Origin: Swingsia samuiensis
GTDB taxonomy: Bacteria > Pseudomonadota > Alphaproteobacteria > Acetobacterales > Acetobacteraceae
Direction of reading: 5' to 3'
Length of the DNA: 64,000 nt
Assembly: GCF_006542355.1 (NCBI RefSeq)
Contig: NZ_CP038141.1
Location: forward strand, 1,680,001-1,744,000
Positions 61,255-64,000 of the stretch are shown here, in pieces. The notes under the pieces are model-generated. The model did not search any database. It was not told the DNA's origin and saw nothing but the letters and a program-made list of their open reading frames with translations. The translations under genes and the position numbers were made by a program. Every line of letters starts with the position of its first letter. The stretch's first letter is position 1.

Positions 61255-61917
61255 ATGTCCTCAACCCTATCACCGCGTTCTGCCTTGGATGCGGAGGCTG
61301 TTAAAGCAGCTTACCGCCGATGGGCCCGAGTTTACGATACTGTTTTTGGTGGGGTCTCGGGTTATGGGCGCAAGAGAGCTGTCGCTGCCGTGAATGGCTT
61401 ACCTGGTGAGCGTGTATTAGAAGTGGGAGTGGGAACAGGTCTCGCTCTTCCTTCATATGCGCGCCATAAGCGCATTACCGGGATAGACCTATCCAAAGAT
61501 ATGTTGGAGCGTGCGCATCAACGTGTTTTGAAAGAGCGCCTCACCAACGTAGATGATTTGCTGGAGATGGATGCCGAGGCAACCTCTTTTGAGGATAATA
61601 GCTTTGACATCGCTGTTGCCATGTTTGTCGCTTCTGTTGTGCCGCATCCCGATCGGCTTTTAGCTGAATTGAAGCGTGTTGTTCGTCCCGGTGGATATAT
61701 ATTGTTTGTTAATCACTTCTTAGCGACCGGTGGTGTACGTCTAGCGATTGAAAGAGCTATGGCCAGTGCGTCACATTCTTTAGGATGGCACCCAGATTTC
61801 GCGATTGAAGCTCTGCTGCCCCCTGAAGATTTAAATCGAGCTACACGTATTCCCGTGCCCCCTTTAGGTCTTTTTACTCTTGTGACATTGCCTCATATTA
61901 AGGATAGTGTAGGTTAA
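61255..61917 (+). CDS. Phosphatidylethanolamine N-methyltransferase (PmtA-like)
   Basis: 220 residues. Class I SAM methyltransferase with motif I LEVGVGTGLALPSY, motif II acidic residue in ITGIDLSKDML, and FDIAVAMFVASVVPHP and RPGGYILFVNHF downstream. The N-terminal AYRRWARVYDTVFGGVS is typical of the Rhodobacter-type PmtA, which methylates phosphatidylethanolamine to phosphatidylcholine. Substrate is inferred. A 10-bp hairpin terminator follows. Confidence 0.82.
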   Translation: MSSTLSPRSALDAEAVKAAYRRWARVYDTVFGGVSGYGRKRAVAAVNGLPGERVLEVGVGTGLALPSYARHKRITGIDLSKDMLERAHQRVLKERLTNVDDLLEMDAEATSFEDNSFDIAVAMFVASVVPHPDRLLAELKRVVRPGGYILFVNHFLATGGVRLAIERAMASASHSLGWHPDFAIEALLPPEDLNRATRIPVPPLGLFTLVTLPHIKDSVG

Positions 61918-62023: not shown

Positions 62024-63205
62024 ATGATCAATCAGGCATTTACAACACGGAACGTTATTCCAGCCAGAAGGATAGGGGTCTCTTTTATTCTTCTTGCTTT
62101 GTTTGCCGGCCTTTTAGGGGGAGCACTCGCTTTTCTTAAACTGCCGACAGAGTCCACCGCAGGGCAAGTTTTTTGCCATGGAATTTTAATGACTTTTTAT
62201 GTCATGTGCCCTGCAGTTTTAGGTGGCTTTTGGAATTTTTTTCTTTCTGATGAATTAAAAGTCAAGCATTCGACTTTACCAGTCGCAACGGTTGCCGGCT
62301 TATGCTTTTTGTCCGCCGGGATCGTTTTGTTACCCCTTCAGCCTGTTTTGGGGGTATTGTGTTGGTCTGTTGGTATTTTATGCGTTGCTTTAGATGTTAT
62401 TACGACCTTCTTAGAAGGAAGGTCTGTTTCTTTTAAAAATATTTCGCCTTTCGCATGGTCTGTTCTAGCAACAGCATCGGGTGCAATTATTATAGCTTCG
62501 GCTCTTGCTGCTCTTGTGACACGCTTAGTTGTGGATGAGAGTTCGGTCAGCAAAGTATATACACTCGCACATATTCTTTATCTTCCAGAACAGGCTTTGA
62601 TGATCACCCCAGCGCTCGGGTTGGTCTGTCATGTTTTGTTGGCGAAAACGAACAAAACATCCGCACTTTCATTTAGAATTGCGTCATATATTTTCGGTAT
62701 TATTGCCGTTATTGGTCCGTTATGCTGGTTAGATAGTTTGTTTGGTGCGTTTCCATTAGTGCTGGAAAAGTATTTGTTTCTGCTTACACAGCTAATTCCG
62801 GTCTCATTTCTAGTGCTGGCTGTATGTTGGGATGCTTGGAACACACGCCGTGAACTCACGGGTGTAACCTTATGGGCTGTAGCTAGTCTTATTCTTTTTG
62901 GGATCAGCTGGGTTACAGAATTTCTTTATTCTGGTTCTTTTGTTGAACATACAGCGGCCTCCTTTGGTGGCGTAATGGCTTTATGCTGTGGTTTATACGC
63001 GTGGATACAAAAGCTATATCCATCGGGCTTTCCTTCAACATTATGCCGTATACATGCAGGTTTAACTTTTTTTGGGGCTCTTTGTTCTTTACTCCCCTCG
63101 TTAATGATTATGGGAGAAGGAATGATGGGGGTAAGTCTCCTTACGTTTGGATTGCTGGGCCTCTCTTTGGTTAAAGCGGCAGAGCAAAGCCGAGTAAGAA
63201 TATGA
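62024..63205 (+). CDS. Degenerate heme-copper oxidase subunit I homologue lacking the active site
   Basis: 393 residues, ~10-12 membrane helices. It aligns by eye with cytochrome oxidase subunit I: CHGILMTFYVMCPAVLGGF matches HGVLMMFF-IPA--GGF, LDVITTFLEGR matches INIITTFLNMR, SPFAWSVL matches FAWSV, PALGLVCHVL matches PGFGIISHV, and GVMALCCGLYAWIQKLYP matches the helix X end. His52 and His309 correspond to the two low-spin heme ligands. The heme a3 ligand is Val, CuB ligands are Leu187, Asp237 and Ser238, and the active-site Tyr is Ala191. It cannot therefore reduce oxygen. Its stop overlaps the ctaB start by 4 bp. Confidence 0.7.
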   Translation: MINQAFTTRNVIPARRIGVSFILLALFAGLLGGALAFLKLPTESTAGQVFCHGILMTFYVMCPAVLGGFWNFFLSDELKVKHSTLPVATVAGLCFLSAGIVLLPLQPVLGVLCWSVGILCVALDVITTFLEGRSVSFKNISPFAWSVLATASGAIIIASALAALVTRLVVDESSVSKVYTLAHILYLPEQALMITPALGLVCHVLLAKTNKTSALSFRIASYIFGIIAVIGPLCWLDSLFGAFPLVLEKYLFLLTQLIPVSFLVLAVCWDAWNTRRELTGVTLWAVASLILFGISWVTEFLYSGSFVEHTAASFGGVMALCCGLYAWIQKLYPSGFPSTLCRIHAGLTFFGALCSLLPSLMIMGEGMMGVSLLTFGLLGLSLVKAAEQSRVRI

Positions 63206-64000
63206 GTGACGTAACACCATCCATTCCAACGGGCCTTTTTTCTATTTTAGGGCATGAACGTGATTCTTCATTAAGAGAGTGGTTTTCTCTTTTAAAGCCC
63301 AGAGTAATTTCGCTAGTTGTTTTCACGGGCGTTGCAGGGATGGCTGTGGCGCCTCAATGGCCTTCTGTTCCGATCGGGCTTATTACTATTTTATGTATTT
63401 GCATCGGAGCGGGTGCCGCCGGTGCAATTAATATGTGGTATGATCGCGATATTGACGCGATTATGAAGCGCACAAACGTGCGTCCTATTCCAGCTGGGCG
63501 TGTGTCGGCTGACAGCGCGCTAATTTATGGAATTATTCTTTCTGTTTTATCGGTTGTTATATTGTGGTTAGCAACCAATGCATTGGCTGCCGGCATTCTC
63601 GCATTTTCTATATTCTTTTATGGCGTTATTTATACGATGTGGCTTAAGCGACGGACGCCACAGAATATTGTAATTGGTGGTGCAGCCGGTGCGTTCCCTC
63701 CGATGATTGGGTGGGCTGCTTCTATGGATTCCATGGCTGTGTTGCCCGTTTCTATGTTTGCCGTCGTATTTTTGTGGACGCCCCCTCATTTTTGGTCGCT
63801 CGCACTTTATGCGTGTAAAGATTATGGCAATGCAGGCATTCCGATGTTGCCGGTTGTGAAAGGAGCGCGGCACACACGGTGGCAAATTCTACTTTATACA
63901 TTTGTGCTAACTGCTGTATCGTTAACGCCCTCATTCTTTCATGAAACAGGATGGTTTTATACAGCAACAACTAGCGTGTTGGATTTAGGATTTATTCTGT
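63202..64000 (+). CDS. ctaB: Protoheme IX farnesyltransferase (heme O synthase), 3' end beyond window
   Basis: At least 266 residues, running off the right edge. The prenyltransferase motifs NMWYDRDIDAIMKRT (aspartate-rich, Mg-diphosphate binding), RPIPAGRVS and YTMWLKRRTPQNIVIGGAAGAFPP are intact, within a series of membrane helices. It converts heme B to heme O for terminal oxidases (bo3 in acetic acid bacteria). It begins within the stop of the degenerate oxidase gene, so the two are probably co-translated. Confidence 0.95.
   Translation, partial: MSDVTPSIPTGLFSILGHERDSSLREWFSLLKPRVISLVVFTGVAGMAVAPQWPSVPIGLITILCICIGAGAAGAINMWYDRDIDAIMKRTNVRPIPAGRVSADSALIYGIILSVLSVVILWLATNALAAGILAFSIFFYGVIYTMWLKRRTPQNIVIGGAAGAFPPMIGWAASMDSMAVLPVSMFAVVFLWTPPHFWSLALYACKDYGNAGIPMLPVVKGARHTRWQILLYTFVLTAVSLTPSFFHETGWFYTATTSVLDLGFIL

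Follow-up and report, generated by a model that had tools for sequence, protein, structure and literature searches.

A degenerate haem-copper oxidase subunit I encoded beside haem O synthase in acetic acid bacteria retains its low-spin haem ligands under purifying selection

Introduction

Why would a degenerate subunit I of a haem-copper oxidase be kept directly in front of the gene for haem O synthase? The locus that raises this question occupies the final 2 kb of the window (the whole 64,000-nucleotide stretch of DNA analyzed here), in which an acetic acid bacterium (genome of 2.19 Mb, 100% complete) has the remnant of an oxidase operon, made up of a CtaD-like gene and ctaB. Little is understood of how oxidases receive haem O and haem A from the membrane synthases that make these haems.

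In 2014, Matsutani reportedly described a mutated ctaD beside ctaB in Acetobacter, and the abstract of that work is said to put the loss of ctaD function down to accumulated mutations. The "deranged COX1-like protein" or partial COX cluster ctaBD of acetic acid bacteria belongs to the same gene family, again a mutated ctaD beside ctaB; Degli Esposti 2023 (PMC10715153), from which the former name comes, states that all metal-binding residues are lost and suggests a CtaB-stabilizing role. The gene had thus been reported, with a proposed role, when the earlier note on this DNA named no described function. In genome papers (PMC5158111, PMC4596401) the gene is called ctaD or a cytochrome c oxidase is credited to A. 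pasteurianus; the SKU1108 genome paper enters it under ctaD with no qualification. An RNAseq paper on G. oxydans does not mention it. Our literature search found no function described beyond the stabilizing suggestion.

Results

The locus comprises the following features.

62024..63205, + strand: CtaD-like gene, degenerate haem-copper oxidase subunit I (393 aa, 12 predicted transmembrane helices)
63202..64000, + strand: ctaB, haem O synthase, continuing past the window end (315 aa in the contig)
63202..63205, + strand: 4-base ATGA overlap of the CtaD-like gene stop (TGA) and the ctaB start (ATG)

The CtaD-like reading frame starts with ATG and runs without internal stop or frameshift, and it overlaps ctaB as the earlier note had stated. 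A methyltransferase-like gene (61255-61917) is the upstream neighbor; beyond the window, the genes 3' of ctaB lie on the opposite strand. The genome has a single ctaB, the one adjoining the CtaD-like gene. Inspection of the locus revealed no adjoining gene for oxidase subunit II or III, which sets the CtaD-like gene apart from aa3 ctaD, and no ctaC-like gene was recognized by eye here or in six orthologous neighborhoods.

Descent from haem-copper oxidase subunit I, as the earlier note had proposed, is borne out by homology, by the 12-helix fold and by the presence of both low-spin ligands. The 393-aa protein matches Pfam COX1 at 5.1e-10, exceeding the curated cut-off, and phmmer matches it to aa3 cytochrome c oxidases of the PDB at 3.4e-17; a search of NCBIfam returned only a meaningless match (E=2.4). 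In agreement with these matches, an AlphaFold2 model (pLDDT 79, pTM 0.82) has 12 transmembrane helices and superposes on aa3 oxidases along ~380 residues (Z 34-36), the structural match that the earlier note had set as a check. Since the input alignment, in which 42 real CtaD proteins accompanied the window protein and a single orthologue, itself favors an oxidase fold, the independent evidence is that of the sequence matches. With aa3 CtaD/COX1 of Paracoccus and Rhodobacter the protein shares fold, 12 helices, direct descent and the ctaD-ctaB gene order, but it is far shorter than the about 530-560 aa of real CtaD. The short CtaD-like proteins and real CtaD fall on either side of one branch (support 100/100) in a 69-sequence tree, so one loss of oxidase function is enough. 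The CtaD-like family forms a graded series of truncation. The Komagataeibacter xylinus orthologue (L070, 3487-4920) keeps the CtaD C-terminal tail NYWGPGARTAEWQVTSP, lost in the window protein.

Alignment with real CtaD located the residues kept and lost (equivalents in Paracoccus numbering).

62177..62179, + strand: codon of H52, equivalent of low-spin haem ligand H94 (His in 86/86 orthologues)
62456..62458, + strand: codon of W145 (invariant in 86/86 and in real CtaD)
62582..62596, + strand: L187-P-E-Q-A191 in place of the active-site motif HPEVY (CuB ligand H276 and Y280 gone)
62726..62728, + strand: codon of W235, the Trp of the VWAHH motif in real CtaD (invariant in 86/86)
62732..62737, + strand: D237 S238 in place of the HH pair of the CuB site (H325/H326)
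62942..62944, + strand: V307 in place of haem a3 ligand H411
62948..62950, + strand: codon of H309, equivalent of low-spin haem ligand H413 (His in 86/86 orthologues)

All the residue pairings drawn in the earlier note (H52=H94, H309=H413, L187=H276, A191=Y280, D237/S238=H325/H326 and V307=H411) are correct in this alignment. Across 86 orthologues with a median pairwise identity of 27%, just 4 of 383 columns are strictly invariant, namely the two histidines and the two tryptophans, all of them shared with aa3 CtaD. The ligands of the CuB site, the haem a3 ligand and the active-site tyrosine of the aa3 enzyme are what the family lacks: H276 and Y280 are kept in 0/86 orthologues, H326 in 7/86, H325 in 30/86 and H411 in very few (2/62 in a smaller set). 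The selective loss claimed in the earlier note, with the catalytic residues gone and the low-spin pair retained, is the trend across the aligned family, where, as the note had asked to be checked, the two histidines are invariant and the catalytic positions are not. The proton channels have fared no better, with K354 kept in 0/86 orthologues (mostly Leu, Val or Ile) and a mixed D124 column with Asp in 16/86. The equivalents of R473 and R474 and the W164 loop are gone from the orthologues, and the loop between helices XI and XII is deleted as well. A functional haem-copper oxidase is thus excluded on the counts of CuB ligands, H411, Y280 and D124/K354 channels alike, and none of the 86 orthologues can build an O2-reducing center.

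Evolutionary rates set the same residues apart. In an analysis of 52 sequences and 397 sites on a tree 36 changes per site in length, H52 and H309 were the lowest and second-lowest of all sites, near-tied with about ten others, and the positions of H276, H411 and H326 ranked 328, 306 and 281. Within the family, helices I, II and X evolve slowest and helices VI-VIII rank among the fastest; in the parent enzyme the former enclose the low-spin haem and the latter form the catalytic site. This pattern of helix conservation is reversed relative to real CtaD: the rates of I/II/X versus VI-VIII are 0.67 versus 1.17 in the CtaD-like family (one-sided p=1e-8) and 0.96 versus 0.56 in real CtaD, which has no such trend.

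The gene is also under purifying selection, weaker than that on ctaB (dN/dS 0.03) but far from neutral. Among 17 close pairs, dN/dS of the CtaD-like gene had a median of 0.10 and a range of 0.02-0.29, with upper 95% bounds <0.6 in all of them; only close pairs were used because distant ones (dS up to 1.6, median dN/dS 0.60) are saturated at synonymous sites. A dN/dS of ~0.1 conflicts with the view that the gene is decaying and, together with reading frames intact here and in 86/86 orthologues, supports the contention of the earlier note that an uninterrupted gene has been maintained. Nor is it a scattered pseudogene, the finding that would have spoken against that note; an intact copy is present in 26/26 genomes of the window's genus. 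Selection, intact frames and site-specific conservation together rule out a pseudogene, and we regard it as very probable that the gene encodes a maintained haem-site protein.

A survey of Acetobacteraceae genomes found a match in 267/299, of which about 62 are short CtaD-like proteins and the rest real CtaD. A profile search recovered divergent copies missed by a single-sequence search. Contig scans gave no matches with a single CtaD-like protein as the query; with a CtaB alignment they gave one named carrier (K. xylinus) and many real ctaD-ctaB loci. In every orthologous locus scored, ctaB lies directly 3' of the CtaD-like gene, and the position of the locus is stable, with identical flanking genes on both sides across distant genera. 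The 4-base overlap is present at 61/83 scorable orthologous loci versus 1/6 real ctaD-ctaB pairs. Exactly one true CtaB is encoded per carrier genome, beside the CtaD-like gene (25/25 tested), and this CtaB must therefore be the source of haem O for the bo3 oxidase. A full-length CyoB-type subunit occurs in every carrier genome examined; that of the window's genome, encoded elsewhere (G000:C1:1791211-1792554), is its working oxidase.

Two kinds of genomes without the gene bear on its link to CtaB. In reduced genomes it is absent together with ctaB and the bo3-type oxidase: five genomes without ctaB (G029, G116, G066, G070 and G210) lack both the CtaD-like gene and a 650-700 aa CyoB-type subunit. 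Three of these, G029, G116 and G066, are small complete genomes whose sole COX1-family match is a weak one, a protein of 785-833 aa (E about 1e-42) that is probably a quinol nitric oxide reductase and not an O2 reductase. Other relatives retain ctaB without the CtaD-like gene, G179 and G249 with a single CyoB-type oxidase and G001 with two oxidase genes of CyoB-like size. In the G179 lineage (genus g54) the methyltransferase gene is followed directly by ctaB, with nothing CtaD-like between them (L161, 204-2376), an independent and clean loss of the oxidase gene. This pattern indicates that, at least in that lineage, the CtaD-like protein is not required for CtaB and a bo3-type oxidase to work. 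The partnership with CtaB put forward in the earlier note therefore holds only in part: the genes are always adjacent, mostly overlapping and absent together, but the CtaD-like gene is dispensable in some relatives and the ctaD-ctaB order is ancestral, being that of real CtaD too, so that adjacency alone is no proof of a new partnership.

Two further genes bear on the haem involved. Haem A synthase is missing from the window's genome and 28 other carriers and present in 26; its absence from 29 carriers implies that haem A is not what the CtaD-like protein serves. In real CtaD, R54 binds the formyl group of haem A. At this position, 25/26 carriers with haem A synthase have Arg, Gln, Glu or Ser, and 22/29 carriers without it have Leu, Phe, Ile or Gly or lack the residue, the remaining 7/29 being polar. 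Such a pattern would fit continued occupancy of the site by a haem, but carriers with and without the synthase are not independent on the tree and the contrast could reflect a single event. SURF1 was found in 0/55 carrier genomes versus 6/6 genomes with real CtaD, a loss expected from loss of the oxidase alone.

Discussion

Rather than being a fossil, the CtaD-like protein probably lives on as a partner of the neighboring haem O synthase in the handling of haem. As aa3 oxidase was replaced by a bo3 quinol oxidase in acetic acid bacteria, its subunit I would have lost oxidase function and been kept as a low-spin-haem membrane protein, with one bis-histidine haem between helices II and X. That haem would be O or B, as haem A synthase is missing from the window's genome. 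The protein, presumably produced alongside CtaB and located next to it, may receive CtaB-made haem O and hold it or hand it on so that it can be inserted into the bo3 oxidase. In aa3 oxidase assembly this step is aided by SURF1, which these carrier genomes lack. From the patterns described above we infer that the protein binds haem, touches CtaB and transfers haem. Our preferred mechanism, in which a protein with low-spin haem (O or B) keeps haem O or relays it between CtaB and the bo3 oxidase, is accordingly only tentative, with somewhat less than an even chance of being right. Deletion of the loops bearing the haem propionate partners R473/R474 and W164 means that a bound haem would be held less well, and a weaker hold would also suit a carrier. 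The more specific version, in which the low-spin site of the dismantled oxidase is a dedicated carrier that takes haem O from CtaB and loads a bo3 oxidase acquired horizontally without a haem O synthase of its own, is possible but rather unlikely. Relatives with ctaB and CyoB-type oxidases but no CtaD-like gene (G179, G249 and G001) are counter-evidence to a carrier mechanism and, to our knowledge, the bo3 oxidase of E. coli needs no such protein.

A purely structural role has somewhat poorer prospects still, and we think it unlikely. The protein would keep CtaB folded or placed in the membrane, any haem being merely a structural cofactor; this is the published proposal (PMC10715153) with haem added here. 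Its invariable place directly before ctaB, with which it would be cotranscribed, the prevailing overlap and the purifying selection would all suit such a platform, which by itself leaves unexplained why precisely the low-spin ligands are the slowest sites. Relatives that keep ctaB without the CtaD-like gene also weigh against it, as does the abstract of the 2014 Matsutani paper, according to which CtaB of A. pasteurianus alone reportedly makes haem O in E. coli. A leader relic, a slowly decaying remnant retained only because the stop-start overlap supports translation of ctaB, is strongly disfavored and has very little chance of being correct. Such a remnant is what the attribution of lost ctaD function to accumulated mutations implies. 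The loss of every oxidase residue, the ancestral position and the overlap speak for it, but a coding-length leader cannot yield site-specific retention, dN/dS is ~0.1, the frame is intact in 86/86 orthologues over a tree of 36 changes per site, and relatives translate ctaB after deleting the gene.

The two invariant histidines could also serve something other than CtaB. A membrane cytochrome of the b or o type that moves electrons, for example from quinol to a periplasmic acceptor, or reports redox state would make sense of the invariance of both ligands, since electrons enter the parent enzyme through a low-spin haem with two histidine ligands. The conserved neighborhood, a methyltransferase gene upstream and ctaB downstream, offers neither a redox partner gene nor a subunit II, and a single haem site with no sensor or effector domain makes this role improbable; nothing in our analysis points to the sensor that the earlier note had entertained. 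More improbable again, the histidines may owe their retention to packing or to a ligand other than haem, be it a metal, a quinol or a lipid. The strict invariance of W145 and W235, neither of which is a haem ligand, speaks for this, as does the loss of the haem propionate partners. Against it, the retained histidines correspond precisely to the axial ligands of the ancestral haem, and the slow sites cluster on helices I, II and X around the haem site.

Under the favored reading of haem O held or passed by the CtaD-like protein, a natural low-spin-haem half of an oxidase, translated with haem O synthase and conserved across acetic acid bacteria, would isolate the haem-passage step in a simple, testable form. 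The gene and its neighborhood were already known; retention of the low-spin site is a new, testable property. Neither the invariance of the low-spin pair, nor strong purifying selection, nor the reversal of helix conservation was found reported in the literature searched. The statement of total metal-ligand loss (PMC10715153) is corrected by our alignment, in which two putative low-spin haem ligands are invariant in 86 orthologues. Annotation as ctaD or cytochrome c oxidase is misleading because the oxidase center is absent in all orthologues studied; our findings explain this recurrent misannotation.

Among known systems, the proposed task resembles, by analogy only, that of SURF1 (Shy1), the haem-insertion factor of aa3 oxidase, which likewise would bring haem to an apo-oxidase beside the haem O/A synthases. 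SURF1 has an unrelated fold with two transmembrane helices, and the two genes never occurred together in the genomes tested. CyoB, subunit I of the bo3 ubiquinol oxidase, belongs to the same superfamily as the CtaD-like protein and carries low-spin haem b on the equivalent histidines, but it keeps the whole binuclear center. One genome has a second CyoB-type gene with an internal TAG (G126:C1:787601-788944), apparently a decaying extra bo3 copy.
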